Origin: Candidatus Chloroploca asiatica | GTDB lineage: Bacteria; Chloroflexota; Chloroflexia; Chloroflexales; Chloroflexaceae | DNA: 64,000 nucleotides | NCBI RefSeq assembly: GCF_002532075.1 | Contig: NZ_LYXE01000036.1 | Coordinates: forward strand, 1 to 64,000 | Direction of reading: 5' to 3' | In this document: piece by piece, positions 14,220 to 49,601 of the stretch | Numbering within the stretch: the stretch's first letter is position 1 | Layout: the number at the start of each line of letters is the position of its first letter | Made by a program: the position numbers and the translations under genes | Notes under the pieces: generated by a model | Database searches by the model: none | Seen by the model: only the letters and a program-made list of their open reading frames with translations | What the model was told of the DNA's origin: nothing

Positions 14220-14222
14220 AAG

Positions 14223-15540: not shown

Positions 15541-15630
15541 CTTATCCGGCCTTATTGGCAGGGCACAGCATCAAGGCAACCAGGGCTTGCCAACGGGGAG
15601 GACAGCGAGGCCAAAGAGATCCTGGAAGAA

Positions 15631-33352: not shown

Positions 33353-33368
33353 ACTAAGGAGGCATTAC

Positions 33369-36300
33369 ATGTCTATCCGCAATCGTTTTCTGATGAGAGT
33401 CGCTTCGTATGATCGATTCCATCGCTTGGCGATGAGCACGCAACGACTGCTACGGCTAACCTGCATCTTGCTGCTGACTGCCATCATCTTGGGCGAACCG
33501 GCGACGGCAAGCACCCAGGGGAGCGGCTGGCAATGGCAGAACCCGCTTCCTCAGGGGAATCATCTCCTGAGTATCTGGGGGATAGACGCCAATAACATCT
33601 GGGCGGTAGGAAACGGTGGGGTTATCTTGCGCTGGGACGGCCAGACCTGGCAGGCCCAAACCAGCGGCTTCGGGAACGCACTTACTGCGATCTGGGGAAC
33701 GAGTGCTCGAAACATCTGGGCCGTCGGTACGGATGGCATCATCATCCGGTGGAACGGCAGCACATGGTCACGCTACCCTACCCCCACCCGAAGTCAGCTT
33801 AACGCGATCTGGGGAGCCGATGCCAACAATGTCTGGGCAGTCGGTAACGACGGCACGATCCTGCGCTGGGACGGCAGTACATGGTCGGCTGAGACGAGCA
33901 ACACATCCAGGCGCCTCAATGGCGTCTGGGGCACAGACGCCGGCAATATCTGGGTGGCAGGCAATAACACCATCCTGAAGTGGGACGGTACACATTGGGT
34001 AGAAAAACACCAATCGCGCATCCTATTCACTGCCATTTGGGGAACCGATGCACAAAACATCTGGGTCGTCGGCACTGCTGGTACTATTCTGAAGTGGAAT
34101 GGCTGGATCTGGTCTGCCGAACACGTCAATACGAACGAGACGCTGTACGGGATTGGGGGTCTGGACGCTGAGCATGTCTGGGCCGTCGGCGAGCGTGGCG
34201 TCATTGTCGCCAGATCCTTTACTGCTGATAGCTTTGAGGTCAGTTGGCGCCTGCAGCGGGTCGACTCACCTCCACGGCTCAGCGCGATCTGGGCTCTCGA
34301 CGCAAATAACGCCTGGGCCGTTGGCGAAGCTGGCACCATCCTCGAATGGAAGGGTATCACATGGCGTGACCAGCAGCGGATCTTTGAGCGCATGACGTTC
34401 AATGGCGTTTGGGGTGCAGATGCTGATCACGCCTGGGCGGTTGGCAGTGCTGGTGCTATTCTGCAGTGGAATGGCGCTACCTGGTCGGCTCAGACGAGTG
34501 GCACCACCCATGCGCTCCGGGCTGTCTGGGGGCTGGATGCCAATAATGTCTGGGCGGTGGGCGAAAATGGTACCATCCTGAAGTGGGATGGCACAGGCTG
34601 GGAACAACAACTCAGCGGCACAACCGATAGCCTCACGGGTGTCTGGGGCCTTGATGCCGAGAATATCTGGGTTGTGGGCCAGGGGAACACGATCCTGAAG
34701 TGGGATGGTCAGGCCTGGGATGCGCCGCCGCAGATGGAAAACCGTCAGAGACTCCATTTCGAAGCGCTCTGGGGTACCGACGCCGACAACATCTGGGCCG
34801 TCGGCATGCAAGGTATTTATAAGTGGGACGGCCAGACCTGGGAAATCCAATTATGGGAGCAGGAGAACTTGTTTCGGGGGTTCAAGGCTATCTGGGGTAC
34901 CGACGCCAACAACATCTGGGCTGTTGGTCGCAAAGGCGTTTATAAGTGGGATGGCCAGACCTGGGCGGCGCAGTCCTTCGATTTCGAAGGGCACCTCCTC
35001 TCGAGTGTGTGGGGCTTAGATGCGAATAATGTCTGGGCGGTGGGCGAAGGAATTTTCAAGTGGGATGGCCGCGCCTGGTCGCGCCAGGCAAGCGAAGAAG
35101 GGCACAGGATCTTCGCCGTTGGGGGCAGTGACGCTCATCACGTCTGGGTCGTCGGGTCAGGGATCCAGTTGTGGAATGGCGATCAGTGGAGCGACGCGGA
35201 TCCAAACCTGCCTAGGATCGACAGTCTGATCGGGATCTGGGGTGCGGATGCCCGCAACGTCTGGGCGGCTGGAAGCAATGGAACGATTGTTAAGTGGAAC
35301 GGTCGCAAGTGGGTCAAACAACGCAGCAGTACGAACGACGCCGTTATCCATGCTTTCTGGGGATTCGATGCCGACAATGTCTGGGCTATCGGAAGACAAG
35401 GCTATAGCTGGTTGCCTGATCATCGCGGCATCATCCTGAAATGGGACGGTCGCACCTGGGCGCCGCAACCAATCGGTTCACCGCCGTACCTCACGGCGAT
35501 CTGGGGAGCCGATGCCAGCAATGTCTGGGCTGTCGGATTGAATGGAACCATCCTGAAATGGGATGGACGTACCTGGTCGCCCCAGGTGAGCAGCACCAGC
35601 GATGACCTCAATGCCATCTGGGGGCTGGATGCCAACAATGTCTGGGTCGTAAGTAATGAAGGCGCAGTGCTAAAATGGGACGGTTTGGCCTGGACAGAGC
35701 ACTCCAGGTTAGGAACAACCGAACTAACAAGTAGACTAACCGGCATCTGGGGGACGGATGCCAACAATCTTTGGGTCATCAGTAATAACAGACGAATGTA
35801 TGACAGTAGCATTATGAAGTGGGATGGCAGCGCCTGGCACCAGCAATGGAACGCTCACCGTAACGAGCACATGATCATCCATCTCTACGGAATCTGGGGA
35901 CGGGATGCCAACAATGTCTGGGTCGTAGGGGAAGATGGCTACAGTAGTGGCATCACACTGCGCTGGGACGGCAACTCCTGGCTCGATCAACACATAGGCG
36001 TCAGCTACAGCCTGCGTGGGATCTGGGGTACACCAACCAATAATCTCTGGGCGGTCGGCGATGCCGGCGTCATCCTCTATCATGGCGATTGGCCGATCAT
36101 CAAGCCCAGCCTGACCTGTAACTTCTCCGAGGGAGCTCCTGGAAGCGCCTTCCTGATCACGGGAACCGAGTTCCCGGCACGGACGACGGTGCAGTTGCAG
36201 ATCAACGGCAGCGACATCGGCAGCGTCAGTACTGATCGCAATGGGCGCTTCACGGCGCTTCTCCAGACTGAGGCGACAGCGCCAGAGGGTTACTACGTGG

Positions 36301-36479
36301 TCAGGGCCAACACGACTGCCGTGAATAGCGGAGCAAGCGTGTGGGGAAGCTATCGGCTGGTACATACTACTCCGCTGCGTATGCCGCCGAGCGACGCGCC
36401 TGCAGGAATCGCGATACCGGACAATGTTCCAGCCCACGCTCGGTTGCCTGTGCTCCATCTGCCATTGGTACGACGTTAA
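33369..36479 (+). CDS. large secreted IWGTDANNIWAVG propeller protein
   Basis: A 1036-aa protein, ATG 33369 with AAGGAGG 7 nt upstream. A signal peptide (hydrophobic LLRLTCILLLTAIILGEPAT) is followed by about 21 blades with consensus IWGTDANNIWAVGxxGTILK WDGxxWxxQxSGT. These are the same fold type as the WGSS protein but with a DANN-W core. After the blades comes an Ig/IPT-like domain (CNFSEGAPGSAFLITGTEFP), a common cell-surface beta-sandwich. The tail is LHLPLVRR. Twenty-one blades would make three seven-blade propellers. It is the last intact gene of the cluster. Confidence 0.84.
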   Translation: MSIRNRFLMRVASYDRFHRLAMSTQRLLRLTCILLLTAIILGEPATASTQGSGWQWQNPLPQGNHLLSIWGIDANNIWAVGNGGVILRWDGQTWQAQTSGFGNALTAIWGTSARNIWAVGTDGIIIRWNGSTWSRYPTPTRSQLNAIWGADANNVWAVGNDGTILRWDGSTWSAETSNTSRRLNGVWGTDAGNIWVAGNNTILKWDGTHWVEKHQSRILFTAIWGTDAQNIWVVGTAGTILKWNGWIWSAEHVNTNETLYGIGGLDAEHVWAVGERGVIVARSFTADSFEVSWRLQRVDSPPRLSAIWALDANNAWAVGEAGTILEWKGITWRDQQRIFERMTFNGVWGADADHAWAVGSAGAILQWNGATWSAQTSGTTHALRAVWGLDANNVWAVGENGTILKWDGTGWEQQLSGTTDSLTGVWGLDAENIWVVGQGNTILKWDGQAWDAPPQMENRQRLHFEALWGTDADNIWAVGMQGIYKWDGQTWEIQLWEQENLFRGFKAIWGTDANNIWAVGRKGVYKWDGQTWAAQSFDFEGHLLSSVWGLDANNVWAVGEGIFKWDGRAWSRQASEEGHRIFAVGGSDAHHVWVVGSGIQLWNGDQWSDADPNLPRIDSLIGIWGADARNVWAAGSNGTIVKWNGRKWVKQRSSTNDAVIHAFWGFDADNVWAIGRQGYSWLPDHRGIILKWDGRTWAPQPIGSPPYLTAIWGADASNVWAVGLNGTILKWDGRTWSPQVSSTSDDLNAIWGLDANNVWVVSNEGAVLKWDGLAWTEHSRLGTTELTSRLTGIWGTDANNLWVISNNRRMYDSSIMKWDGSAWHQQWNAHRNEHMIIHLYGIWGRDANNVWVVGEDGYSSGITLRWDGNSWLDQHIGVSYSLRGIWGTPTNNLWAVGDAGVILYHGDWPIIKPSLTCNFSEGAPGSAFLITGTEFPARTTVQLQINGSDIGSVSTDRNGRFTALLQTEATAPEGYYVVRANTTAVNSGASVWGSYRLVHTTPLRMPPSDAPAGIAIPDNVPAHARLPVLHLPLVRR

Positions 36480-36850: not shown

Positions 36851-37150
36851 CTCCTTCGCCGGAAAGGTGCCCAGAACTTGCGACGCCTACCGCCGCACCC
36901 TTTGGCACTTCCGTGCCAACGCACTGGCAAGGATCTCTTGCAACGAAATCGTTCGCCAGTGCTACCGGCTCTGGCTTGCAGATCGATACAACAACTGGTG
37001 TCGGATCGAACGAACGAGATGAAGCGCGAAGGCGAACCTGAGTTTGCGCTGCGCCCGGACGCCCGCCCCAATACGCCATGTCTCCGGGCGTGTCCTCACA
37101 TGACCACATATGTACCCTAAACGCCCCACCGACAACGCAAGCATCCAGGC
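36851..37150. other. spacer without a supported gene
   Basis: Short open frames on both strands have no ribosome-binding site or family features. The sequence may be debris of the decayed propeller gene or of the integrated element whose recombinase gene follows. Confidence 0.4.
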
Positions 37151-38170
37151 TCATTCTGCCGGCGCAAAGAAGGGCACTTCGACAAACTCAACTGCTTTGC
37201 GTTTGGCCGCTTCGCCCCGCCGGTCGTAGCTGGCCGTGGTCGTCACTTGCGCGTGCCCGACCAGTTGTTGCACTGTCGCCAGGTCAATCCCGGCATCGAG
37301 CAGTTCGGAGATATAGGTGCGGCGCATATCATGCGGGGTACAGGCGGGGATGCCAGCTTCCTGGGCTCGGTTGGTCAGGATCAGGGCCACCGCTTCGGCA
37401 GTGATCCGTTGGGTGCTAAAGCGGCCCCCTTTGTAGGCCCGGATGAACATGGCCCCTGGATGGGTGCCGCGCACCCCGAGCCAGACCTCCAGTGCGGCGC
37501 GGGTGCCGGAGGGTGCCCAGACCCGGCGATCTTTGTTGCCTTTGCCGCCGCGCACCAGCAGTTCGCCGGTCTCGCGGTGATAGGCCTCCAGATTCAGCGC
37601 GGCCACTTCGGCGCGGCGCAGGCCGGTGCCCCGGATCAGCGCGAGCACGGCGGCATCGCGGCGACCGAGCGGTGAGGGATCATCCGCGCAGGCCCGCAGC
37701 AACGCCCGTACCTCGCTGGGGGTGATCACGCGCCCGGTGGGTTCGCGGTGGCCTTTGACGGTCGGCACCAGCACGGCCCGTTGATACTCCTCGGCGGGGA
37801 GCTCGCCCAGCCGGAAGGCTTCTTGCAAGACCCGGCGCAGCGCGGCGAGGATCTTGTTGGCGGTGGCCGGGGCGTAGCGTTCGACGAGGGTGGCGCGGAG
37901 CGCAATGGTGTGGGCGTAGCGCACGGCTCCCCAGGGCGTGTGGAGGCAGCGCACGTCCTGGCCGTCGGTCGTGCGCACCTCGGCCACGCCGAGCAAGGCG
38001 GCCACGGTGTTCAAGGCTTCGCGCATGGTACGCCGGGAGCCGGGGGTAAGGTTGGCGAGGTAGAGGGCGGCGGCGTTCGGGCGACCGGTGTCCGAGTCAC
38101 GGGCGATCAGGTCGCCCTCGCAGGGTGGTTCCCAGTCAGTTGGTGGGGTCGGCGGGGCCGGATGGGTCAT
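37151..38170 (-). CDS. tyrosine recombinase (XerC/D-like integrase)
   Basis: A 339-aa protein. The N-terminal SAM-like core-binding domain (TPGSRRTMREALNTVAALLG) is followed by the catalytic domain. It has Arg in GTGLRRAEVAALNLE, then RGGKGNKDRRV with the beta-hairpin Lys, TPHDMRRTYISELLDAGID (HxxR), QLVGHAQVTTTASYDRRGE with the GH motif and Tyr nucleophile. All catalytic residues are present. ATG 38170 is chosen because GGAGG lies 5 nt upstream. It may belong to an integrative element carrying the defence genes that follow, or be an integron-like orphan. A perfect palindrome lies 25 bp before the start. Confidence 0.85.
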   Translation of the reverse strand: MTHPAPPTPPTDWEPPCEGDLIARDSDTGRPNAAALYLANLTPGSRRTMREALNTVAALLGVAEVRTTDGQDVRCLHTPWGAVRYAHTIALRATLVERYAPATANKILAALRRVLQEAFRLGELPAEEYQRAVLVPTVKGHREPTGRVITPSEVRALLRACADDPSPLGRRDAAVLALIRGTGLRRAEVAALNLEAYHRETGELLVRGGKGNKDRRVWAPSGTRAALEVWLGVRGTHPGAMFIRAYKGGRFSTQRITAEAVALILTNRAQEAGIPACTPHDMRRTYISELLDAGIDLATVQQLVGHAQVTTTASYDRRGEAAKRKAVEFVEVPFFAPAE

Positions 38171-38194
38171 GGGGGCCTCCGTGGACAATAGGTT

Positions 38195-38214
38195 GTGAGA
38201 ATCGTCATTCTCAC
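38195..38214. promoter_or_regulatory. 8-bp-arm palindrome upstream of the recombinase
   Basis: GTGAGAAT-CGTC-ATTCTCAC, perfect arms with a 4-nt centre, 25 bp upstream of the recombinase start. It could be an operator for self-regulation or half of a recombination site. Confidence 0.55.
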
Positions 38215-38746
38215 GACTTATTCTACCACCTCACCCGCCCCCGGCCCGCACACCCGTGCGCCCTCACCGCTACGGGGAAGAGCCGCAGGCGCACGGGCGC
38301 GTGGTCGGATCGTCGAGCGGCGCAGGGCGTCGCGACGACCCTGTGCCTGGACATCGGGGGCGAGGATCAGCCTGGTGGCTCCGTGCTCGTGTGGCCTGGG
38401 CGTCGATGGACGAGCAGGGCTGTTCGGCGTACCTGTGATCATTGGGGATGCGCAAGCGCGCCTTCTTCGTTTGCGTGGCCTGCGGTGCGGTCGGGAGGTT
38501 GGGGACGCTGGTATCAGTGCAGCACCGGCGTAGCGCAATGGATGGTGCGGCCAGTACACTCAAGCATGACTTCGACTCGGAAGAAGGCGTTAAGAGTCTG
38601 GATACAAAATGGTAATGTGAGAGTGTTAGAATATCTTATATGATTGCATACCAAAGCACATGGTTAGAGCGTCTCTCACATGTCTTTGCAAAGCACATAT
38701 AACTATCGTATCTGTGAGTGCCAATGTTGGCTGTGTGAGGAAACCT
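38215..38746. other. 530-bp upstream region of the BrxD/helicase operon
   Basis: GC-rich up to 38570 with no supported gene, then an A/T-rich stretch (38580-38700) holding TTAGAATATCTTATATGATT around 38628-38647, which contains candidate -10 hexamers. This is probably the promoter region of the four-gene operon. I see no convincing -35 box or operator. Confidence 0.45.
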
Positions 38747-39589
38747 ATGACTACCCCGGTCGCGATTGAGGACATTCTCAAGGCCCTGCCCACTGCATCG
38801 GCAGATACTGCCAAGTTGCCCAAATTGCTGGCTGAGCTCAATCGCCTGGACAATGATCGCGCTGCGAATCTCGCGAAGATTAAAGGGATTGTGAAGCAAC
38901 TCAATGCAGTCGATTCGAAGGATCACCATCCCCAGATTGTCCGACTTCGCGAATGGGTAATGGCTTATGAGAGCGAGATCAGCCAGCTCGAGCAAGAACT
39001 GCGCCAACGCTTTGGCAAGGAGCTTGCTATTAGCTTGCGTGATCTCGATCTTACGCTGACAGGTCAGTACCCTCTGCTTCATGCGAACTTCTTTACCTTC
39101 CACATGCTTGCAGACCAGAGCAAGGTGGAAATCTGGTATGGCTACGAGCAGGAATTGTTGGATACTGCCCCACTGCTAGCATCCGAAGTGAGCAAGCGGG
39201 TTACCCGGATTCTCAAGCAACTCGGCCGTTCGTTGCGACCAATAGAGTACTTGGTTAAATTAGAAGAGGCTATCCGGCGAGTACCCCACAGATCAGATTT
39301 ACCTGGAGTACCCATCATCAAAGTTCTGCCTGAAATCGCTCATCTTCTCCAGAGTCGTAGTTACTATCAGAACCCCATTCGTGAACATTACCGCAGCTAC
39401 AGTCGGGCCGATTTTAGCTATGACCTAGATCGCTGTCGCCGCGATGTGGAGACTCGCGGGCGTGTGCAACTTACGATTGCAACCCGTATGTACACCCGAA
39501 GCCGAGACGACTTCTTGTGGATCCCAGATGTCAATGGGACGGGCGGAACAACCTACTCTCACCTCAGTTTGAAGGAAACAGTGATATGA
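38747..39589 (+). CDS. coiled-coil protein of unknown function, first gene of the BrxD/helicase operon
   Basis: A 280-aa protein that I do not recognise. Residues 20-100 are helical and heptad-like (LPKLLAELNRLDNDRAANLA and REWVMAYESEISQLEQELRQ), a likely coiled coil. The middle has a mixed alpha/beta segment (LLHANFFTFHMLADQSKVEI with WYGYEQELL) and the end is rich in Arg and Tyr (YYQNPIREHYRSYSRADFSY), as in nucleic-acid-contacting proteins. GTGAGGAAAC lies before ATG 38747. Its stop overlaps the next start (ATGA), so it is translated together with the ATPases and helicase and is probably a structural or specificity subunit of the same complex. Confidence 0.7.
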   Translation: MTTPVAIEDILKALPTASADTAKLPKLLAELNRLDNDRAANLAKIKGIVKQLNAVDSKDHHPQIVRLREWVMAYESEISQLEQELRQRFGKELAISLRDLDLTLTGQYPLLHANFFTFHMLADQSKVEIWYGYEQELLDTAPLLASEVSKRVTRILKQLGRSLRPIEYLVKLEEAIRRVPHRSDLPGVPIIKVLPEIAHLLQSRSYYQNPIREHYRSYSRADFSYDLDRCRRDVETRGRVQLTIATRMYTRSRDDFLWIPDVNGTGGTTYSHLSLKETVI

Positions 39590-40821
39590 GTGACACCAAT
39601 CTCTCGCCCTTGCTCGCTCTGCGTATCATCCAGGCGCTTGGTGGTCCTGGCACACCGCCTGAGGAGGGACTCCAACACTTTTCGGTGGGACTGGATCCAT
39701 ATCTCAATGTGCTTGATGATGAATATCTTGATCGCTACATCCAGTATGGTGGTGCAAGCTTTAAGATGGTGGTTGGCATTTATGGCGGTGGCAAGACTCA
39801 TTTTCTCTACAGCTTGCGTGACCGAGCCCGAGCTAAGCACTATGCCGTTTCCTACGTGAGCCTGAAGAGTAGTGGCGAAAGCCCTTTCTATGCGCTTGAC
39901 CTGGTATATAAGGCAATCGCGGCTGGACTACTCCCTCCTGATGATGGTACTGATCAGCATATTGACCGTGGTATTCGCTCATTTCTCCGGGCATGGTATG
40001 GCAAGCGTCTGCAGACATATCAGACACAGGAAATGAGTCTGGATCGAGCCCGTGAATGTCTTGCTGATGACATTCGGCAGATTGATCTTCCTAACCTAAA
40101 CTATCGAACTGCGGTCAGAAAAGCCCTTGAGTCGTACCACAATAACCGGCAAGAAGCCTTTGACCAGGTGTGTCAGTGGCTTCAGGGCGAAGGGTTTGAC
40201 CGGCGTGCCCTTCAGCACTATGGCATCAACCAGAAGCTTGATCGGAGCACTGCGTTCCCAATGATTCGTGCCATGGTACGCATGGTGCGTGAGTTGGGCT
40301 ACAGTGGCCTCGTCGTGCTGCTTGATGAGGCGGAGCGTATTCCTAGCCTTAGCACGCGAAATCGTGAGCAACTCCTGAGTAACCTTCGTGAGATGATCGA
40401 TGAGTGCGGGCAGTCCTCGTTCGAGGGCATGTTCATAGTCTATGCCGTTCCTGATCAAAACTTTCTCGAAGGTCGCACCCAGGTCTATGAGGCTCTGAAA
40501 CAGCGCTTAAGCACCGTCTTCACCGAGATCAATCCAACTGGGGTCAAGGTGATGTTGGAACAGACGGTTGGTGACCACACTATGTTTCTTCATACCCTTG
40601 GGACGAAGCTTGCACAGATCTACGAGGTTGCCTACCAGTGTTCATTCGACGCACAAGAACTCAACGAAATGGTGATCATGGTGGCCGATTGGGCCGAAGA
40701 TCAACGTTTCGGTGACGAGGGCTATAAACGACTATTCGTGCAAACGATGGTTGCGGGGCTTCATTATCTCAACCACCACGGCATATGCCCAACCCTTACA
40801 GAGATCACCAGAAAGCCATAG
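39586..40821 (+). CDS. BrxD-like P-loop ATPase 1 (DUF2791 family)
   Basis: A 411-aa AAA/STAND-type ATPase. It has Walker A VGIYGGGKTHFLYSL (residues 64-71), the SSGESPFYALDLVYKAI segment after the first strand, and Walker B GLVVLLDEAERIPSLSTRNR with the extended DEAE. A sensor-like strand, FEGMFIVYAVPDQNFLEG, and LKQRLSTVF follow. This matches the DUF2791/BrxD family, known from BREX systems and from stand-alone modules with a BrxHI helicase. The start overlaps the previous stop by ATGA. A second, diverged family member lies directly downstream, so the two may form a hetero-oligomer that loads or regulates the helicase. Confidence 0.75.
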   Translation: MSDTNLSPLLALRIIQALGGPGTPPEEGLQHFSVGLDPYLNVLDDEYLDRYIQYGGASFKMVVGIYGGGKTHFLYSLRDRARAKHYAVSYVSLKSSGESPFYALDLVYKAIAAGLLPPDDGTDQHIDRGIRSFLRAWYGKRLQTYQTQEMSLDRARECLADDIRQIDLPNLNYRTAVRKALESYHNNRQEAFDQVCQWLQGEGFDRRALQHYGINQKLDRSTAFPMIRAMVRMVRELGYSGLVVLLDEAERIPSLSTRNREQLLSNLREMIDECGQSSFEGMFIVYAVPDQNFLEGRTQVYEALKQRLSTVFTEINPTGVKVMLEQTVGDHTMFLHTLGTKLAQIYEVAYQCSFDAQELNEMVIMVADWAEDQRFGDEGYKRLFVQTMVAGLHYLNHHGICPTLTEITRKP

Positions 40822-40823
40822 TC

Positions 40824-42155
40824 ATGACATCTCACACCATCCATCATCCGATCCACGGTTCAGGGGTTGTGATCGGACAGCGCTTTGCTGGCTTTGAGCT
40901 TCATGTACGCTTTAGCAACGGTCGCGAACGATACGTGCGTGCCGATGAGGTACAGGCAGAGGCACCAGCGATGCAAGAGCTAGATCCAGTTCAGGTTGCA
41001 CATCCCACTCGGCAGGTATGCTCGGGACCTCCTGTTCCGCGAGGCATTATCGAAACTCTTCGCCTGGGCATTGTGCCTGAAAATCGGGTACAAACGTTCA
41101 CTTTCGGGCGTGATGCTGAGCTTGCTCAACTTCAGGGGTGGCTAACCGCCGAAGATGATGGCGCACGCATTATCCAGGGTACCTATGGCACAGGCAAAAC
41201 GCACATCCTCAACTACTTGCGACGGTACGCCCTGAAAGAAGGGTATGCCGTCGCGTTCATCGAGATGGACACGCAAGAGTCACCCTTCTCGAGGCCAAAG
41301 CGCGTTTATAGCCAGGTCGCCGAGAGTCTGACCTATCGCGATGCTCTCACCGGACGTCACCTGGGGTTTAAGGACTTAGTGCGGTGCGCCGTCTACGCTG
41401 GCCTGACCCGTACGCATCCGTACTTCTCCCATCTCGAGACACACCTTGCGGATGAGGCCGTGTGGAACTGGATCATGGCGCGTGAAGATATACCTCGGCC
41501 CTACGATGTTAACCACGCCTATAACAGCTTACCAGGACTCTACAATCACGGAACTGCTGCAAACATCTACACCAACCTGCTCTCTGGGCTTGGTTGGTTC
41601 TGTCAGCATCCGAAGCTAAGTCTCAAAGGCCTCATTCTGATCTTCGATGAGAGCGAAACTCTTTTTGGTTATCAAACGCGAGACTCGAGTGTAAAGAGCT
41701 TTAATTTCCTTGATACACTCCTTGCCGTTGCTAACAATGATCCTTGGATGCTTGGTCATCCACAAGATAGGGGGTTTATCACAAGTTCATACGCATGGAA
41801 TATTCCCTTCTTGTACCAGCCAATCAGTGGTCTCAAGCTTGCCCTTGCCTTCACAAGCCTCTATAATGCACCTACGGCCGTCAAGGAATCTCTCATTGCA
41901 ACTTCAGTGGAACAGATTGTCTTGCAACCGCTTGATGAGGAGGCACTCTACCATATCTTTGAGAAGGTTCGCGGGTTCTACCGCCAAGCATATTGTTTCA
42001 AAAGTGATGCTCTCCCTCTCGATGTGGTCTTCCAGCGGGTTCTGGAAAAGACTCAACAGCACGACTCGCTCCGGATGAAGATCAAGGGCTTCGTTGAAGC
42101 CCTTGATCTCCTCCGACTGCATCCAGGTGTGTCCCCTGATGAGGTGCTGGTGTGA
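40824..42155 (+). CDS. BrxD-like P-loop ATPase 2 with N-terminal SH3-like domain
   Basis: A 443-aa protein. Residues 5-45 (HTIHHPIHGSGVVIGQRFAG followed by FELHVRFSNGRERYVRADEV) look like a small Tudor/SH3-like barrel of the kind found at the end of UvrD/PcrA and in CarD-type proteins, a candidate protein or DNA contact. The ATPase part has Walker A IQGTYGTGKTHILNYL (119-126), FIEMDTQESPFSRPKRVYSQ and Walker B GLILIFDESETLF. It ends in a helical region. The start is 3 nt after the previous stop (an earlier in-frame ATG at 40785 is possible). The end overlaps the helicase start by GTGA, which implies coupled translation. Confidence 0.75.
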   Translation: MTSHTIHHPIHGSGVVIGQRFAGFELHVRFSNGRERYVRADEVQAEAPAMQELDPVQVAHPTRQVCSGPPVPRGIIETLRLGIVPENRVQTFTFGRDAELAQLQGWLTAEDDGARIIQGTYGTGKTHILNYLRRYALKEGYAVAFIEMDTQESPFSRPKRVYSQVAESLTYRDALTGRHLGFKDLVRCAVYAGLTRTHPYFSHLETHLADEAVWNWIMAREDIPRPYDVNHAYNSLPGLYNHGTAANIYTNLLSGLGWFCQHPKLSLKGLILIFDESETLFGYQTRDSSVKSFNFLDTLLAVANNDPWMLGHPQDRGFITSSYAWNIPFLYQPISGLKLALAFTSLYNAPTAVKESLIATSVEQIVLQPLDEEALYHIFEKVRGFYRQAYCFKSDALPLDVVFQRVLEKTQQHDSLRMKIKGFVEALDLLRLHPGVSPDEVLV

Positions 42156-43720
42156 ATGACCGTGATTGTACACGAATATTGCGTACTCGTCTGCCTCATG
42201 CCTGGCGTCCGTTCTTCGGCAGTTACGGTAGACTCACTTTGACCCAACTCGCAGCCATACCCTATGTGCTGGATGGGGCTCAGGTCGTCTTGATGGCACC
42301 GACTGCGTCTGGGAAAACCGAGGCAATTGCGGCCCCAGTTTCCCAACTTCACCGGAATGAGGGTTGGGAAGAACTTGCTGTCATATATGTGGTTCCGACC
42401 CGGGCTCTCGCGAACGATACTCTTGTTCGTGTCGGTGGCCCGGTCAGCGATATGGGATTCCGCATTGAACTCAAACATGGTGATCGCCCGTATCTTCCGC
42501 AAGCGCTAGACTGGTTGATCACAACTCCGGAGTCACTCGACTCGCTCCTGTCCCGACGTCCGCAGATGCTCAAGTCAGTTCGGGCTATCATTCTGGACGA
42601 AATCCATCTCCTCGATAACACCTATCGTGGAGACCAGCTGCGCATCCTTGTCACACGCCTCCAGGCACTGACCGCAACCCAACTCAAAATCCACCTTATC
42701 TCAGCAACCCTTGCCGATCCAGATGCGGTTGCAGCACGCTACGTCACCAGTGCGACAGTTGTGGCGATCGATGGACAACGATCGGCGTCACTCCAGTTTG
42801 CTGCCAACCACACCGATATCAAACTTCTTGCCCGAACCAAAGGTTGGAAAAAACTGCTGTACTTTTGCAACAAGCGTGAGGGCGTTGAGCTTGTTGCTCG
42901 TGACCTTGCAGAAATCTGGCAACCCTACCCCGTGGTCGCTCACCACGGCTCACTCAGCCGTCAAAGACGTGAAGAGGCAGAGCAAGTTCTCCGTGAAGCA
43001 CGGGTCGCTGTTGGAGTTGCAACATCAACCCTCGAAGTTGGGATTGATATTGGTGATATTGACGCAGTCGTGCTTGCCGACATCCCCTGGAGTTGTTCTG
43101 CGCTATTGCAGCGCATTGGGCGGGGTAATCGGCGATCTGGCAAGATCGAGGTGGTTGGCATCAGTACTGATATTGCAACTCAGCGTGTCTTGTCGGCAAT
43201 GTTTGATATGGTAACAGGTGGCTATCTCGATCCCAGCCCCTATATCCTTGATCGTTCGGTAGTCGTGCAGCAAATTTTTTCCATTCTCTTCCAGCAGCAG
43301 GGGAGTGGTAGTGACGAACATGAGCTTGCGGCCCTTCTCCACCATCTGGCGCTTCCCTCTGAGGTTAAGGCCATTCTGAATCATTTAGCAACGCGGGATT
43401 GGCTCGAGCAAAAGAGTAATAAGTGGTTCTTAAGTACGACTATGCTCGATAAGGCTGAGCGAGGGGAAATCCACTCTAATATTCCAGATTCTGCTATGTA
43501 CCAAGTCATTGACGTAGAGTCGAATCAGCAGGTTGGTTCCGTTGCAGGGGTAGTTGATCAAGTGTTCCTCCTTGCGGGTGTAATCTGGGAAATTCTTGAT
43601 GTGCATTATCCAGTGATGCGCGTCCGACGATATCGGGGTTCGGCTGATCCTGCCGTGTTTAAACGCCATCCGCAAGCCGGGCGGTACACCTCCTTCCTCC
43701 CAGTTCATCTTCGGCGCTAA
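42152..43720 (+). CDS. Lhr/BrxHI-like superfamily 2 helicase
   Basis: A 522-aa helicase with a GTG start (GTGA overlap with the ATPase gene). It shows motif I MAPTASGKTEAI (49-57), motif Ia VVPTRALAND, motif II ILDEIHLL (DEIH, 149-152), motif III LISATLAD, motif V VGVATSTLEVGIDIGDIDAV and motif VI LLQRIGRGNRR. This set is typical of COG1201 (Lhr-like) helicases, and the short length without the long Lhr C-terminus fits BrxHI-type proteins. A C-terminal winged-helix segment (ILNHLATRDWLEQKSNKWFL) is present. It is the motor of the four-gene operon, and probably acts on invading DNA. Confidence 0.82.
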   Translation: MNDRDCTRILRTRLPHAWRPFFGSYGRLTLTQLAAIPYVLDGAQVVLMAPTASGKTEAIAAPVSQLHRNEGWEELAVIYVVPTRALANDTLVRVGGPVSDMGFRIELKHGDRPYLPQALDWLITTPESLDSLLSRRPQMLKSVRAIILDEIHLLDNTYRGDQLRILVTRLQALTATQLKIHLISATLADPDAVAARYVTSATVVAIDGQRSASLQFAANHTDIKLLARTKGWKKLLYFCNKREGVELVARDLAEIWQPYPVVAHHGSLSRQRREEAEQVLREARVAVGVATSTLEVGIDIGDIDAVVLADIPWSCSALLQRIGRGNRRSGKIEVVGISTDIATQRVLSAMFDMVTGGYLDPSPYILDRSVVVQQIFSILFQQQGSGSDEHELAALLHHLALPSEVKAILNHLATRDWLEQKSNKWFLSTTMLDKAERGEIHSNIPDSAMYQVIDVESNQQVGSVAGVVDQVFLLAGVIWEILDVHYPVMRVRRYRGSADPAVFKRHPQAGRYTSFLPVHLRR

Positions 43721-43738
43721 ACTGGATCCAAGGGCGTA

Positions 43739-45718
43739 TCACCTCGATCTCTTCCATCGGAGAAGCATGTGTTGCCACATGCTCATCGGTTCACCTGGTT
43801 GCAGCAAGGGGGTGTCAAGAAAGGTTTCCAGATCCGCCTGGGTGAAAATGATCACGTCGCCCTGCGAGCCTGGGTTAATCAGATAGTCCGGGATGTCTTT
43901 GCGCAGCTTGCGGGCACTGACGATATCATCAAGCTTCAAGATGACTTTGCCTGCCTGGATGCTCCATGCGCTCGGCTTGTGACGGTAGAGTTGTCCCAAT
44001 TCATCTTTCACCTTGTCGTGCTTGGCCTGCACATAGTCGTTCATGCTGACGGTGCGACACCACGCAGGCAGCGCCCCCTGGCGATGCTCCGCGAAAATCT
44101 CGACGAGGATCGTTGACGAGAAAGCGAGGATGTCGGTGGGCGGCTCATCCTGAAGCTGCTCCAGCACCCGCCGGAGGTACTCGCGGTAGAGCGCCGTCCC
44201 GAGGGCGCGCTTGATCTTCTTGATCTGGCTTGCCAATTTCCGGCTTTCGCCGGTATGATCAGGCAGGGATGCGCCGGTGTAGATGATCAGGGAACGCTTG
44301 CGGATTTCGGTCTCGAAGGTGTCCTTTTCGGCGTTCATTGAGAGCACCGTGATGGGGTACTCGCGGAGTTGCACGGAGTCGTCTTTAATGAGCGCATTGA
44401 CGTGGTTGTCGAAGCGTGTCCGATCTAGGTCGTCAAAGACCATCGGGTAGCGTCGATTCTGCTCACGAAGTCCGGGAATGTTGCTCTTGGTCAGCCAATC
44501 ATTAGGCAGGAAGCCTTCCCGTCCAAACATCGACACCAATAACGTGCGGATGAGTTCTGACTTGCCGCAATTACTCTTGCCGTAGAGCACTCCGAAAATG
44601 GGGTAATCCATCAGATACTCGTCACGAGCCAGGGCGCGGTTGCGGAAGTCGCAGATGAATGGCCCCACGTACAGCCAACTCATGAACGTGAAGTAGTCGC
44701 GGGCAAGCCGGGCCGGATCGCCACCGCGGAACTGGGTAAAGCCCTTGAAGTACTCGGTCAGACCGTCCACATCGGCTTGCACCGCCGCTGGAGGAGGGAC
44801 AAGGGCATATGGCTGGCCGGAGAGCACGACTTCGCTCCGCTCCCGGTAGATGCTGAGGTACTCCTCTGTGTTTTCCGTTTCGGTGCGGGAGTTACTGCGG
44901 ACATACTGCACCACCCGGCTGGTTGTCCCGCGATCCAGGCGCACGACCCCGTGCTCCGTCGTCAGTACGGAACTCAGGCCGGTGTAGTGCTTTGGTGTTT
45001 TCTGGCTCAGGGCCTTTTGCACGGGGGTTGGTGCTGGTGAACGGTCAGACACGATGATAATCTTTGGCACCTCGCCGCCTGGACGGCCAGCGGAGAGGGC
45101 TGGGAGTTTCTCAATGTCGATCACGTCGTCGAGCACGGCTGTCTTCGCAATGCTCGTGGCCGATCTCTGGCGGATGTGCTCATATTTGGCACAAAAGTAG
45201 TCCCAGGCACCGGGATCGTTGTCGAAGCAGAGGTAACTTTCATTCTGTGTCCCGGTAAACGCCGCGTCAGAGAAGTTTGCTGACCCGGTGATCACCCGGT
45301 GACCTGCTGACCCTTCAAGCAGAAAGAGTTTCTCATGCGAGATCATCTCCTGCACGACGTAGAGTCGCAGCGCCCCTGATTCAATCTTCTGACGGATGTG
45401 AACGTGTGCCGTGCGCTCTGTGATGAGATCGCGGAGCAGGAACTCCTGGTAGTGGAGGTATTGCGCCATGCCGTTGAGGATGTCCTCGCGGCCAAAGACA
45501 ATCTCAATGTCCGCAAGCGCAGCCGCTGCATGATTGATGATCGCGACACTGTTGGAGTAGGTCAGCACCCGGAGGGAATCGTAGCCTGCAATAAGTTCGG
45601 GGAACGATGCCTCCTGCTGGGCAACGAACGATGCCTGGACGATCTGGAGTTTGGGCCGTTCATCTAATTCCCGAAAGAGTGGCCCCTCTTGTTGCTGCGC
45701 TGCTTTTTTGGTTCGCAC
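43739..45718 (-). CDS. PLD-nuclease/P-loop ATPase fusion, candidate defence protein
   Basis: A 659-aa protein. The N-terminal half (residues 30-190) is a phospholipase-D-type nuclease with a single HKD motif, HEKLFLLE (from His128), then RVITGSANFSDAAFTGTQNE. One HKD means it must dimerise. After a linker comes a P-loop domain: Walker A GVLYGKSNCGKSELIRTLL (380-387), which resembles superfamily 3 helicases, Walker B YPMVFDDLDRTRFDN (425-433) and a C-terminal helical part. The start is GTG 45718 with AGGAGG 6 nt upstream. It is convergent with the helicase operon, 18 bp apart. The combination suggests ATP-gated DNA degradation; I do not know a named system with it. Confidence 0.7.
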   Translation of the reverse strand: MRTKKAAQQQEGPLFRELDERPKLQIVQASFVAQQEASFPELIAGYDSLRVLTYSNSVAIINHAAAALADIEIVFGREDILNGMAQYLHYQEFLLRDLITERTAHVHIRQKIESGALRLYVVQEMISHEKLFLLEGSAGHRVITGSANFSDAAFTGTQNESYLCFDNDPGAWDYFCAKYEHIRQRSATSIAKTAVLDDVIDIEKLPALSAGRPGGEVPKIIIVSDRSPAPTPVQKALSQKTPKHYTGLSSVLTTEHGVVRLDRGTTSRVVQYVRSNSRTETENTEEYLSIYRERSEVVLSGQPYALVPPPAAVQADVDGLTEYFKGFTQFRGGDPARLARDYFTFMSWLYVGPFICDFRNRALARDEYLMDYPIFGVLYGKSNCGKSELIRTLLVSMFGREGFLPNDWLTKSNIPGLREQNRRYPMVFDDLDRTRFDNHVNALIKDDSVQLREYPITVLSMNAEKDTFETEIRKRSLIIYTGASLPDHTGESRKLASQIKKIKRALGTALYREYLRRVLEQLQDEPPTDILAFSSTILVEIFAEHRQGALPAWCRTVSMNDYVQAKHDKVKDELGQLYRHKPSAWSIQAGKVILKLDDIVSARKLRKDIPDYLINPGSQGDVIIFTQADLETFLDTPLLQPGEPMSMWQHMLLRWKRSR

Positions 45719-45841
45719 GTTATCCTCCTCATCCTGCTAGGGTTTAGTGGCCCTCGTCACAGGTGATAAAGCGAGTGATGGGGTGAGCAGGTACGGGCCT
45801 CCCCCATCCATGTGCGCTACAGGCTCGCTAGGTCGCCCGCC

Positions 45842-46738
45842 TCATCGCGGCGTGATCGTCCAGGCTCCATCGGCTGTGATGTCCCAAAAACACCGCGAAG
45901 CCTGACCAAAGACGACCATGTGCTCGCTGTCAACGATGCCAATGTCATTGACGAGCAGATCATCGTCCGTATCACAGCGCAGGAACACGGCGAAGTTGCT
46001 GCCACCCTGGTGCGTAAAGTGATAGGTTTGTCGCGATACGGCGGGCGTGAACCAACCACGGATGTCATCGCCCTGCCCTTCAAGCGCATTCCGGGCCGCT
46101 TCGTCCCAGGCGAGCGGTGTGACTCGGATGAGCCATGGCCCATCGGCATTGATCTCGAGATCGTAGGTGCCAGCGGGAAGATAGCGATGGCCTGCATAAT
46201 ATCCGATCTCATTCACGAGCAGTTCGCGCTCATCCTGTTCGTCATAGGCCAGTACGGCAAAGTTGCTCCGTCCTTCATGGCCGAGATAGATGCGTGAGAT
46301 CATAGGCACGGTAAGCGCCAAGACCCGCGAACTTGTCCCGGTGAAGACTTCCGGTGGGATGGGGGTCGGGATGCTGGTCGGCGTGCTGGTGGGTGCGGGG
46401 GTGCTGGTGGGTGCAGGGGTGCTGGTAGGCGCGGGGGTGCTGGTAGGCGCGGGGGTGCTGGTAGGCGCGGGGGTGCTGGTAGGCGCGGGGGTGCTGGTGG
46501 GCGCAGGGGTGCTCGTGGGTACGGGTGAATTCGTTGGTTCGGCTGGTGCTTGGCGTGCCTCCATGCGTATGACAGACACGGGCGCACGTGTCGAAGCCTG
46601 GGCAGCTTGCAGGGTGATCACGTTCGTTCCGCCCGCCGTCCGTTGACCTAGCTGAAAGCCGACAAACATGCTGAGCGCGATCAACAATCCGAGGGCCAGC
46701 AAGACCACGATGAACTCAAGCGGTGATGAGCGACGCAT
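45842..46738 (-). CDS. membrane-anchored protein with PAPTST linker and paired beta domains
   Basis: A 298-aa protein. An N-terminal transmembrane anchor (FIVVLLALGLLIALSMFVGF) is followed by an extended linker of about nine PAPTST hexapeptides encoded by an 18-bp tandem repeat. Two similar beta domains follow: SRIYLGHEGRSNFAVLAYDE…VNEIGYYAGH and TYHFTHQGGSNFAVFLRCDT…VNDIGIVDSE. Each ends in a DGxWxIxxR strand, as in carbohydrate- or ligand-binding modules. The start is ATG 46738 with AAGGAGGTTCC upstream. It probably sits outside the membrane on a flexible stalk. The ligand is unknown. Confidence 0.7.
   Translation of the reverse strand: MRRSSPLEFIVVLLALGLLIALSMFVGFQLGQRTAGGTNVITLQAAQASTRAPVSVIRMEARQAPAEPTNSPVPTSTPAPTSTPAPTSTPAPTSTPAPTSTPAPTSTPAPTSTPAPTSTPTSIPTPIPPEVFTGTSSRVLALTVPMISRIYLGHEGRSNFAVLAYDEQDERELLVNEIGYYAGHRYLPAGTYDLEINADGPWLIRVTPLAWDEAARNALEGQGDDIRGWFTPAVSRQTYHFTHQGGSNFAVFLRCDTDDDLLVNDIGIVDSEHMVVFGQASRCFWDITADGAWTITPR
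46381..46530. repeat. 18-bp tandem repeat (VNTR) encoding PAPTST
   Basis: About nine copies of GTGCTGGTAGGCGCGGGG or close variants; four consecutive units are identical. Each encodes one PAPTST hexapeptide on the minus strand. Copy number is likely to vary between strains without breaking the frame. Confidence 0.85.
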
Positions 46739-46964
46739 AGGAACCTCCTTGGGCTGGGGCGCTGCTGCGATGCGAAGACGTGCGCCATAGGGAGATGACA
46801 CCGGATCCTGATCCAGGGGCATGAGAAGTGCCGCTATGAAACCACCTCAGATTGCTCCTCTTCTGAGTATGGCACGACCATGTGACAACGAGTGTCACAC
46901 GCATGCATCGATGGCTCTGTTTTCGCCAACACCACGGGGATCGCTGCAGGGGCGCTTGGCGGCA

Positions 46965-47116: not shown

Positions 47117-49531
47117 TCAACCTCCAACTGACGACTGGTTCGCGTGCGCATCGTCTTGTTCCAATACCGGCAGAGGCCAGGCCAGCAGCAGCACATTTAG
47201 CGCCCCTACCCGCAATGGCCCGCCCGCGCAGAGCGTGCGCAGCAGTTCACGGAAACGGTTGCGGGCGATGGGCGTGGTATGGGCGGCCTGATTGCGCGCC
47301 CGTACCAGGATGTCGATTTCGGGGATCAGTTGTGCGATGTTGACCACAAATGCGGTATCCTCAGGGTCAACCTGGCCTACCCAGACCTGCGCCAGGTGCG
47401 CGGCAATGCGCGCCCACAACGCTGGGTGCTTGCGGTAGACGCCACCTAATGCGCCGAGCGTCGGTTTGCCATATGGAAAGTCGGCCCCTGTGATGCCAGG
47501 GATGGAGAGGATGCGCCGCTGCAACTCGCGCTCGAGCACGCGGGCGACGTGGATGATGGAGGCTGAGTAGTCGTTGGCCTGCACGTCGTCGAGTTGGTCG
47601 CGCAGGTAGATCGCCAGCGCGAGCGATGCGCGTTCGGTGGGGCCGATCAGGGGGAGGGTGCGATCCAACCCAATGTCGCCGAGTTTGGCTTCGTAGCGCC
47701 CTAGATCATGCAAGGCACCGGTGATTTCGGCGAAGCGGCGGGTCAGTCCTTCGATGCGACTGACGGCATACTCAATGGCAGTTTCATCAAGCGTTTCCAA
47801 CGCGCCTACCGCAAAGAGACGATCCAGTTCGCTCAGCAATTCGTGGGCGGTACGTGGTGGGCGCACGGGCGGTGTCGCCCCGACCTGGCCGATGATATGG
47901 CACAGTTGCTCGTCGCGGCAGCAGTGATGGCTACGACTGACCAGATCAACGCGCCAGGGGCCGATATGTGGCTTCGGGCAGACCAGCAGGTCTTCTGGCG
48001 CGAATGCAGTCCCGTCGCGCCCCAGCATCGCTCCGCGCTCGCTTAGGCTCAGCGGGTCGAGGAAAACGCCGTGGCAGGCTACCGGTACTTGCGCACGCAA
48101 CGCCTGGTGCGCCTCGTCAAGTACTGCCACCAGGGTGGCGTGCGTTGCGGCCAATCCGCCAATCTGCGGGCATGCCCGCCAGATCGTGATCGCTGCATCC
48201 GGACGTGTGCTCTGCGCTGCTGCCGGTTCAGGCCATACCCGGTAGAGCGGGCCGACTGCTGCGGTCGCACTGAGTTGTTCAAGAAGGTCGCTGTCCTCCA
48301 GGTCAGCCGGGCGTTCAGCGCTCTGGAAGGCAAAGAGCAAGGCCCCGCGACATTCACCCGTCAGCTGTAGGTCGGCGATCATGCGTTTGATCGTTCCCGA
48401 CGGCGCACGGACACTATCGCGAGGCTTGTAGTACTTCGCATCGAGCACATACCCTGGCTCACGCCAGATCAGGCTGCCCTGCTGCCTCACCTCGGCCCGC
48501 CCGTCGCGCTCTAGGTAGAGATCGGGCCTGACGCCTGGAGCCTGATGCCAGTGATGGGGAATAGTGCGGTCGTGCTGGAGCCAGTAGACCCGTCTGTCGT
48601 CACCCTCACCCCAGTGGAAGCGCAGTCGCATCGTCCCTACGTGCCAGATTTCTCGCACGCCCCGTCTTTCCAGCAGTTCGGCGAGTTCGTAGAAGAGCCA
48701 GATCTGATAGAGGTAATTGTCACGGGCTGGATCCGCACCAAGCATGGGGGGAGCGTTGGCGGATAGGTTGCGCTCAAGGAGGCGCAAGCCTCTGAGGTTA
48801 CGCCGCCAGGCCAGGAGATCATCGTAAGCGCTGTTGTGACCAGGCACAAGGTGCGCCTCGACCGCTCGCTCTAGATCGATAGGCCGCTGTTCGGCATCAC
48901 CGTTGGCGATGGCTTCAGCCTCACGCACCAGACCAACAAACTGTGGGAAGGCCAGTTCACGGGTCACCTGTTCAAGCATCTCGTGCAGGGGATGGCGCAA
49001 CGCCATAGCGCCAGCTACCTCTCGTTCGGCATCCAGGCGCACCTGGATTGCAGCACGATATTCCAGCAGAGTCACCACTGTCAAGAGATTCTCGGGGGTT
49101 GCAAAATGACGCCGACGCTGGCGGGTATGCACGTGCAGAGGCGGCTCACCAGGGCGATCACGTAGACCCGCAGCAAGCGTATGTGCCCAGTCGATGCGCC
49201 CCCGCGGCGGCAATTCCTCTATCAGTCCCTCGCGTGGAGCCAGGAAACTCAGCCGACGCTTGATGCGTGGCAGGATGGACGCAAGCAGTTCATCACGCAG
49301 ATAGATCAGCACGGCGAGTTCGCGGTACGGGTGCAAGACCGTGTAGTGCTCATCGTCAAACAGGCTTCCCAGGCGTGGCGCAAAACTGCTGCCCAGTCGC
49401 CGCACGTCGTGGCGTAAGAGCAACTCAACCATTCGCCCCTGGAGCCAGAGGAACGCTTCACATTCCACGGATGAAGGATGAATGGTGAAGGATGCAGCGT
49501 GGGCCATCTCAGCACGCGCCTCGTCGCTCAT
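47117..49531 (-). CDS. McrC-like PD-(D/E)xK nuclease subunit
   Basis: An 804-aa protein that follows an McrB-type ATPase gene after 70 nt. The nuclease core is visible at residues 334-372: GVRPDLYLERDGRAEV, then GYVLDAKYYKPRDS, the PD…DxK pattern, with Glu in LFYELAELLERRG before it. This arrangement is as in the DUF2357/McrC group. The N-terminal 270 residues and the C-terminal 350 residues are mostly helical and unassigned; the latter has a histidine-containing SRSHHCCRDE segment. It would cut DNA when translocated by its ATPase partner. The first residues (SFTIHPSSVE) come from a TTCATCCTTCATCC-like repeat, so the true start could be a little downstream. Confidence 0.72.
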   Translation of the reverse strand: MSDEARAEMAHAASFTIHPSSVECEAFLWLQGRMVELLLRHDVRRLGSSFAPRLGSLFDDEHYTVLHPYRELAVLIYLRDELLASILPRIKRRLSFLAPREGLIEELPPRGRIDWAHTLAAGLRDRPGEPPLHVHTRQRRRHFATPENLLTVVTLLEYRAAIQVRLDAEREVAGAMALRHPLHEMLEQVTRELAFPQFVGLVREAEAIANGDAEQRPIDLERAVEAHLVPGHNSAYDDLLAWRRNLRGLRLLERNLSANAPPMLGADPARDNYLYQIWLFYELAELLERRGVREIWHVGTMRLRFHWGEGDDRRVYWLQHDRTIPHHWHQAPGVRPDLYLERDGRAEVRQQGSLIWREPGYVLDAKYYKPRDSVRAPSGTIKRMIADLQLTGECRGALLFAFQSAERPADLEDSDLLEQLSATAAVGPLYRVWPEPAAAQSTRPDAAITIWRACPQIGGLAATHATLVAVLDEAHQALRAQVPVACHGVFLDPLSLSERGAMLGRDGTAFAPEDLLVCPKPHIGPWRVDLVSRSHHCCRDEQLCHIIGQVGATPPVRPPRTAHELLSELDRLFAVGALETLDETAIEYAVSRIEGLTRRFAEITGALHDLGRYEAKLGDIGLDRTLPLIGPTERASLALAIYLRDQLDDVQANDYSASIIHVARVLERELQRRILSIPGITGADFPYGKPTLGALGGVYRKHPALWARIAAHLAQVWVGQVDPEDTAFVVNIAQLIPEIDILVRARNQAAHTTPIARNRFRELLRTLCAGGPLRVGALNVLLLAWPLPVLEQDDAHANQSSVGG

Positions 49532-49601
49532 AGTTTGCCCCGTCCGCGCTGTTCTTCTGCCGGAGCTTGGAGACAGAACTGTTTCATCCGTATAGTCTTT
49601 C

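Follow-up and report, generated by a model that had tools for sequence, protein, structure and literature searches.

A recurrent four-gene operon of Candidatus Chloroploca asiatica that joins two BrxC/BrxD-type ATPases to a helicase and may act against invading DNA

Positions 38747–43720 of the 64,000-nucleotide stretch of Candidatus Chloroploca asiatica DNA analysed here (the whole stretch is called the window) hold a four-gene operon, hereafter the quartet, which encodes a protein of a new family (gene 1), two ATPases of the BrxC/BrxD family (ATPase 1 and ATPase 2) and a superfamily 2 (SF2) helicase. On balance, we favour the view that the quartet is a mobile system, probably directed against invaders such as phages or plasmids, and that it represents a third lineage of the ATPase–helicase pair found as BrxD–BrxHI in bacteriophage exclusion (BREX) systems and as SngB–SngC in Shango, the pair acting as a helicase loader. 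Three features are new here: the loss in ATPase 2 of a putative arginine-finger residue, the predicted winged helix of gene 1, and the location of the quartet in a 7.3-kb stretch of DNA with a low guanine plus cytosine (GC) content that is absent from a genome of the same genus.

Composition and recurrence of the quartet

The four genes overlap or abut and form one operon (Table 1): gene 1 and ATPase 1 share an ATGA (39586–39589), ATPase 1 and ATPase 2 are separated by 2 nt (the stop codon of the former ends at 40821 and the ATG of the latter is at 40824), and ATPase 2 and the helicase share a GTGA (42152–42155), with the helicase stop codon ending at 43720. The open reading frame (ORF) and junction coordinates agree with the original prediction, made from the letters of this DNA, which had described four genes joined in exactly this manner and encoding, among others, two different BrxD-like ATPases and a compact DEIH helicase akin to BrxHI and Lhr.

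Both ATPases exceed the cut-off of the Pfam BrxC_BrxD family (22.2 bits) and carry Walker A and Walker B motifs; they are thus AAA+ ATPases of the BrxC/BrxD type. Their scores against the NCBIfam BrxD model are 142.4 bits for ATPase 1 and 72.9 bits for ATPase 2, neither reaching the equivalog cut-off of 350. ATPase 2 has an N-terminal extension of about 70 residues (in the searches made with it, 40821, one codon before the ATG, was taken as the start). In an alignment of 67 ATPases, the Walker A lysine, the Walker B DE pair and a late arginine are conserved in 27/27 ATPase 1 and 27/27 ATPase 2 sequences; stricter text patterns for Walker A and Walker B recovered 25/27 and 16/27 of the former, 24/27 and 25/27 of the latter. 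The residues concerned in the window ATPase 1 are K71 (Walker A), D248 and E249 (Walker B), R308 and R383 (the late arginine), all identical in the 27 aligned sequences. The R308 column, by contrast, separates the two ATPases: an arginine is present in 27/27 ATPase 1, 7/7 SngB and 5/5 BrxD sequences and in 0/27 ATPase 2 sequences, 21 of which have a gap at this position and six another residue. In ATPases of this type an arginine finger is expected after strand 5. From its position in the alignment, R308 is the putative arginine finger of ATPase 1, and since it is lost in ATPase 2 yet kept in ATPase 1, the two proteins may form an asymmetric heteromer in which ATPase 1 would be the sole finger donor. 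In the ATPase tree, which includes a small set of references (seven SngB, five BrxD), ATPase 1 and ATPase 2 fall into separate groups and each need a single origin, with supports of 57 and 87 and long branches. The claim that the two are different BrxD-like proteins is thereby borne out, and the earlier suggestion that a hetero-oligomeric ATPase controls the helicase is supported in that the two ATPases probably form a hetero-oligomer serving it, the missing residue of ATPase 2 fitting a heteromer. Searched against the sequences of the PDB, ATPase 1 gave no match and the ATPase 2 profile gave weak matches only, to DnaA (E = 0.0014) and TnsC (E = 0.019). A BREX survey, in the part available, classes the ATPase family as ORC-Cdc6 (PMC12839542).

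The helicase displays the motifs APTASGKT, DEIH, SAT and QRIGRGNR and has a short C-terminus. Among the best 25 of its 89 PADLOC matches, BrxHI comes first (E = 3.9e-72), followed by SngC (E = 3.3e-60), consistent with the original description of this gene. In a tree of helicase cores rooted on seven Lhr sequences, 18 quartet helicases form a single clade (100/99), and SngC and BrxHI together make up its sister clade (100/95); within this small reference sample, SngC (seven sequences, 100/99) and BrxHI (five sequences, 98/95) both stand apart from the quartet, and an unrooted tree of longer helicase sequences concurs. A narrow text pattern for motif I was found in 10/18 quartet helicases, SAT in 18/18. 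The window helicase groups with helicases from Ignavibacteria and Cloacimonadota (98/96), apart from those of other Chloroflexota, and was therefore probably acquired across phyla. Helicases of 517–547 residues are found in Ignavibacteria, Cloacimonadota, Tectomicrobia and Anaeromyxobacter, most others having about 690–740 residues, and these short forms cluster with the window helicase (98/95 excluding Anaeromyxobacter, 82/58 including it). Because the short form is common to its closest relatives, the window helicase is considered complete, and its reading as a truncated pseudogene was rejected. A published tree, as far as its description was available, unites SngC, BrxHI, DruE and DpdJ in a clade that is potentially distinct and has antiphage functions as its defining trait (PMC12278908).

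Searches of Pfam, PADLOC, NCBIfam and PHROGs gave no significant family match for gene 1, and the best match of its profile to PDB sequences has an E-value of 0.071; it is a member of a new protein family. An AlphaFold2 model of the whole protein, built from the window sequence with 20 relatives (predicted local distance difference test, pLDDT, 88.2; predicted template modelling score, pTM, 0.83), predicts a helical N-terminus (residues 1–100), an alpha/beta middle part (about 105–160) and a winged-helix-like C-terminus (about 163–280). The original prediction had called this an unrecognised coiled-coil protein; unrecognised it remains, but the three-part fold of the model is not mainly a coiled coil. 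Modelled alone, the C-terminal domain (pLDDT 89.8, pTM 0.82) has the order H-H-H(short)-H-E-E-E. Foldseek gave no solved relative at E ≤ 0.001 for the whole protein or for this domain. The 50 rows of the VIA structural list for the C-terminal domain, which, judged by their titles or known folds, are nearly all winged helices, have Z-scores of 4.6–6.2 throughout, that is, below 8, where a match may reflect nothing beyond a common structural arrangement; among them are TubR, which acts in plasmid partition (Z 6.2, 83 residues, root mean square deviation 3.1), human ORC1 (Z 5.8, 83 residues, 3.8) and yeast Cdt1 (Z 5.5, 78 residues, 2.5), together with further weak matches to linker histones, forkhead domains and archaeal Orc1/Cdc6. 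The list being consistent despite the low Z-scores, the C-terminus is predicted to be a winged helix, and gene 1 may well bind DNA. Conservation of gene 1 peaks in the same domain, where 15/118 columns are conserved at ≥ 85%, versus 4/100 and 3/62 in the other two. The best VIA matches of the whole protein (Z about 8, clostridial toxin domains among them) were to N-terminal helices of unrelated proteins and were discarded as a common helical arrangement.

The quartet recurs well beyond the window. Gene 1 was found in 7/61 genomes when the window genome and 60 relatives were searched, and ATPase 1 comes next in the six others (in G024 it is interrupted by the contig end). A gene-1 profile matched seven of 400 genomes of the phylum, six of them within the set; the seventh, G094, has a weak gene 1 (E = 5.7e-4) without other quartet genes alongside and was left out of the carrier count. 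A first contig scan with ATPase 2 alone gave no match; when species genomes were scanned with an alignment of ATPase 2 sequences, 22 loci were recovered, 20 of which retain sequence upstream of ATPase 1, and gene 1 is present there in 20/20 (the profiles used for this check were built from Chloroflexota alone, and 4/20 contigs were already represented in the gene-1 profile). Altogether, 28 distinct loci are long enough for their gene order to be assessed, and 27 of them, which come from bacteria, archaea and two plasmids, have the order gene 1–ATPase 1–ATPase 2, so that gene-1 relatives precede ATPase 1 at 26 distinct loci besides the window. The 28th locus, L019, is degraded, with gene 1, a shortened ATPase 1, a helicase fragment and no ATPase 2. 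Left out of the 27 were the duplicates L064, L067, L069 and L071 (contigs of L017, L016, L018 and L020, respectively), L065 and L068, which are cut inside ATPase 1, and L015, where the contig ends inside ATPase 1. Carriers belong to Chloroflexota, Ignavibacteria, Cloacimonadota, Tectomicrobia, Anaeromyxobacter, Riflebacteria, ANME-2/Methanosarcinales, Thaumarchaeota and Brockarchaeota. Around one archaeal carrier, gene 1 occurs in 2/151 genomes, both already known as carriers. ATPase 2 has matches in 22 plasmid records, and two of the nine examined hold quartets (Desulfomonile tiedjei and Aulosira laxa), the same two that a plasmid search with gene 1 returned. This spread, the conserved order and the patchiness indicate that the set is old, transferred and rare.

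A helicase gene lies downstream in 21/27 loci, in two of them after a Uma2-family gene. Uma2 genes in this position were found in three related Chloroflexota loci only (65–80% identity to the L018 copy; Table 1), and the Uma2 nuclease was on this ground rejected as a core component. Six loci lack the helicase: L031 and L051 end at most 0.6 kb past ATPase 2, L054 continues with an ORF containing masked bases that resembles a transposase, and L056, L058 (both archaeal) and L030 (Chloroflexota) have genes 1–3 without a helicase within 2–7 kb downstream. The trio of genes 1–3 may act alone or use a helicase from elsewhere.

Genomic setting and signs of mobility

A genome of the same genus, G001, holds both flanks of the quartet on one contig with 94–99% identity; in this contig, the recombinase region (window 37146–38507) is followed by about 229 nt and then by the sequence from window position 45820. 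The quartet thus sits in DNA absent from the sister genome, which the original account had overlooked. The GC content is 0.51–0.55 over the quartet, versus 0.56–0.70 upstream and 0.60–0.64 downstream. The 7.3 kb were either gained in the window genome (G000) or lost in G001, and we favour a gain because of the low GC content of the quartet. No clear direct repeats frame the stretch. The tyrosine recombinase at its left edge, a candidate link to the quartet only, is 94% identical in DNA and 95% identical over 322 residues in G001; because G001 retains it while lacking the stretch, the site may be a hotspot. Most of window 27.8–37.1 kb is likewise unshared with G001, so the site is variable on both sides of the recombinase. 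The plasmid copies, the patchy occurrence and the grouping of the window helicase apart from those of other Chloroflexota are further signs of mobility. The Desulfomonile tiedjei copy lies at 10215–15641 of the 26.9-kb plasmid pDESTI.01 (NC_018026.1) with AbiE genes, and a ParA-family gene is nearby; the plasmid with the Aulosira laxa copy is classed as conjugative, and the quartet there immediately follows genes annotated as a phosphatase, which may correspond to PglZ, an ATP-binding protein and a helicase, the last two grouping with BrxD and BrxHI in the trees.

The 7.3 kb also carry a convergent gene for a protein with a PLD-like nuclease domain and a P-loop region. Its relatives were found in eight plasmid records, from Acetobacter, Komagataeibacter and Thermus, and no match was found in viral contigs. 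As no relative was present in the other loci fetched by then, it was rejected for now as a fifth component; it is probably separate cargo.

Defence-type neighbours occur in three places: the EVE/HARE-HTH/AAA_5 gene of the window, the phosphatase–BrxD–BrxHI set of Aulosira and the AbiE genes of Desulfomonile. The EVE/HARE-HTH/AAA_5 protein is read as McrB-like; beside it (window 47117–53798, reverse strand) is encoded an 804-residue protein, possibly its partner, which has no match in Pfam (E ≤ 1e-4), PADLOC or PDB sequences. Most of the DNA of this pair is also present in G001. At the right edge of the 7.3 kb, an 18-nt tandem repeat (window 46362–46559, reported as eight overlapping copies of a 72-nt reference) codes for a Pro/Thr-rich stretch of the ORF at 45842–46822 (reverse strand). 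On the other side of the recombinase, window 33303–36479 (forward strand) encodes a 1058-residue protein with many repeats of the type IWGTDANNVWAVG, and G001 has other large genes beside the recombinase where the window has this ORF. A plasmid of Deinococcus psychrotolerans (L075, 3047–10981) carries another assemblage, with two long coiled-coil-like proteins, a BrxD-like ATPase, a helicase and an HNH gene, as well as a second BrxD-like ATPase further on; the ATPase and the helicase branch near BrxD and BrxHI. We know of no name for this set.

Table 1. Features of the quartet, its surroundings and related loci (window coordinates unless a locus is named)
Feature	Coordinates	Strand	Remarks
Gene 1, 280 aa	38747–39589	+	ATG at 38747, GAGGAA upstream
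Gene 2, ATPase 1, 411 aa, BrxC/BrxD family	39586–40821	+	Pfam PF10923, 162.9 bits
Gene 3, ATPase 2, 443 aa, BrxC/BrxD family	40824–42155	+	Pfam PF10923, 87.6 bits
Gene 4, SF2 helicase, 522 aa, DEIH box	42152–43720	+	GTG start; PADLOC BrxHI / SngC
Stretch absent from syntenic G001 contig, 7.3 kb	38508–45819		Carries quartet and PLD/ATPase gene
Tyrosine recombinase at left edge of the 7.3 kb	37151–38188	-	Pfam Phage_integrase, 1.8e-27
PLD-like nuclease domain + P-loop region, 659 aa	43739–45718	-	Convergent; PLDc_2 5.7e-05, under Pfam cut-off
EVE + HARE-HTH + AAA_5 protein, 1398 aa	49602–53798	-	About 3.8 kb beyond the 7.3-kb stretch
Uma2-family gene between ATPase 2 and helicase	L018 4123–4713; L016 446–1123; L068 1863–2483		Related Chloroflexota loci
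BREX-like set in the window genome	Contig C49, L022 6545–19698		Full-length PglX-like gene, second PglX-like piece, PglZ, BrxL

Proposed mechanism and competing explanations

If the quartet is an anti-invader helicase loader, gene 1 would bind DNA via its winged helix and recruit ATPases 1 and 2, which would assemble into an ORC/Cdc6-like hetero-oligomer with an arginine finger supplied by ATPase 1, ATPase 2 being unable to provide one. ATP hydrolysis would then load or release the SF2 helicase on foreign DNA, whose unwinding would cause replication or packaging to fail, and nucleases from elsewhere (in one sub-clade, possibly the in-operon Uma2 nuclease) would finish the DNA. For BREX, one survey, in its available part, suggests that BrxD possibly loads or activates BrxHI (PMC12839542). 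A bolder proposal, which we put forward tentatively and with more doubt than the previous one, is that the quartet is an unnamed immune system of bacteria and archaea using the logic of origin licensing, in which foreign DNA would be marked by the winged-helix protein together with an asymmetric pair of ORC/Cdc6-like ATPases, only one of them able to donate an arginine finger, and these proteins would load onto it a dedicated SF2 helicase. In origin licensing, ORC, Cdc6 and Cdt1 load a helicase onto host DNA. The likeness lies in an AAA+ ATPase of the ORC-Cdc6 class, a predicted winged-helix partner resembling domains of ORC1 and Cdt1 (Z 5.5–5.8, hence within the range of common arrangements) and a helicase as client; licensing uses MCM, whereas the quartet has an SF2 helicase, and the comparison is one of resemblance, not of kinship. 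In the open-access literature, the newest defence-system catalogues not being covered, we recognised no published description of the quartet.

Several observations weigh against the anti-invader interpretation. Among 84 neighbouring proteins at 19 loci, most of the 25 Pfam families listed out of 126 have metabolic or regulatory roles, and the 25 PADLOC families listed out of 98 are mainly general kinases and methylases, with a few restriction-type methylases and a Mokosh-type match; with so few clear defence families among those listed, the neighbourhood is not a typical defence-island set. The core quartet contains no nuclease. The window ATPase 2 has no match in phage records at E ≤ 0.001, and scans of IMG/VR gave a single 64-residue match for ATPase 2 and none for gene 1. 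L030, L056 and L058 lack an adjoining helicase. Finally, the winged-helix matches of gene 1 all fall below Z 8 and none is recovered by Foldseek, R308 owes its assignment to the alignment, and the grouping of each ATPase is modestly supported, on long branches and with few references.

We consider it unlikely, as a first alternative, that the quartet is a DNA-repair or replication-restart module without an anti-invader role, in which the two ATPases and the winged-helix protein would bring the helicase to host DNA that is damaged or stalled. The families listed for chromosomal neighbours, mostly of the housekeeping kind, and the core without nuclease would suit such a module, as would the resemblance of the helicase to ligase-associated DEXH helicases, with a score of 161.7 bits against the model TIGR04121, far under its cut-off of 850. 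Among solved structures, the helicase is best matched by 5v9x and 7lhl, two ATP-dependent DNA helicases that we take to be Lhr; it stays far under the NCBIfam cut-offs, and the rooted tree places it outside the Lhr outgroup and closer to BrxHI/SngC than to Lhr. The patchy occurrence of the set (6/400 genomes of the phylum and 2/151 around the archaeal carrier) and its copies on plasmids and within a variable stretch also speak against a repair module.

The idea of a divergent Shango system, in which gene 1 would replace SngA and SngB would be duplicated, the same mechanism thus being coupled to another sensor, appears rather improbable. It is true that both systems are short operons in which the gene of a BrxC/D-type ATPase adjoins that of a BrxHI-like SF2 helicase, that SngB and SngC are among the PADLOC matches of the quartet, and that single-ATPase SngA–SngB–SngC loci exist in the same phylum: the SngA profile matched 12/301 genomes, the window genome not being among them, and each of the five Chloroflexota SngA loci examined encodes a single ATPase and a single helicase. 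Yet Shango has an SngA protein with TerB_N and/or TerB_C domains (TerB domains are present in all three SngA proteins scanned), whereas an unrelated winged-helix-like protein takes this place in the quartet: a comparison of gene 1 with five SngA proteins by hhalign gave a probability of 0.1%, that is, no profile similarity, and no TerB domain was found in gene 1, its six relatives of alignment A1 or two further relatives. Shango also has a single SngB ATPase followed by SngC, while the quartet has two ATPases in 27/27 loci, one of them lacking the finger residue, and the SngC clade excludes the quartet helicases and joins BrxHI instead. Membership in Shango was rejected for these reasons. Shango itself is described, in the part of the report available, as giving modest protection (10–100-fold) against many phages in Pseudomonas PAO1 (PMC10250203).

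That the quartet acts in the replication, partition or transfer of mobile elements, to the benefit of the element and not of the host, is in our opinion very unlikely. Its plasmid copies, its location within a variable stretch and the TubR match of gene 1 (Z 6.2, again below 8) point in this direction, but most copies found lie on contigs not known as plasmids, amid housekeeping-type genes, and pDESTI.01 has its own ParA-family gene near the quartet.

As for BREX, profile matches in the window genome were taken at E ≤ 0.001: the two quartet ATPases are the only BrxC_BrxD matches of the whole genome, and PglZ matches occur only on contigs C49 and C168, both other than the contig of the window. 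PglX, BrxA, BrxB and BrxL are absent from the PADLOC matches listed for the 16 window proteins (6 + 10) that the scan covered, those of the helicase being the best 25 of 89. PglZ was not found in 14/22 carrier genomes, the completeness of which is not stated. With no PglZ on the contig, no other BrxC_BrxD gene and 14 carriers without PglZ, a complete BREX system nearby was rejected. Type-2 BREX (Pgl) likewise has an ATPase–helicase pair, BrxD–BrxHI; it differs from the quartet in having PglX, PglZ and BrxC (PglY) in the locus, none of which was found with the quartet, and a helicase within the BrxHI clade, outside which the quartet helicases fall (in a small reference sample), while the quartet ATPases score under the BrxD cut-off and both ATPases and helicase form separate clades. 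Thus, the original prediction is supported in that no BREX genes were found near the quartet, among the window proteins scanned, and that the set stands alone, its recurrence without BREX being supported by the conserved order in 27/28 loci and by the carriers in which PglZ was not found; its comparison with BREX alone correctly identified one kinship and missed Shango, which is also among the closest relatives. That the quartet is a detached accessory module working together with BREX proteins from other loci of the genome is the least credible alternative, since, even though PglX-like, PglZ and BrxL genes are present on a further contig of the window genome, PglZ was found in 8/22 carriers and the Aulosira copy directly follows a phosphatase–BrxD–BrxHI set, PglZ was not found in the 14 other carriers and the ATPases and helicase are distinct from those of BREX.

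Implications

The quartet suggests a gap in the annotation of defence genes: current profiles see its parts as BrxD and BrxHI only, so that it may be misread as a partial BREX system. If our interpretation of the quartet as an anti-invader helicase loader is correct, the asymmetry of its ATPases would be testable with a single R308 point mutant, and the quartet is available on a plasmid of about 27 kb in a named strain. The BrxD–BrxHI pair would then be a core shared by three systems or more (type-2 BREX, Shango and the quartet) rather than a peculiarity of BREX; these systems would differ in what recognises DNA, and the quartet operon would need neither a methylase nor a phosphatase.

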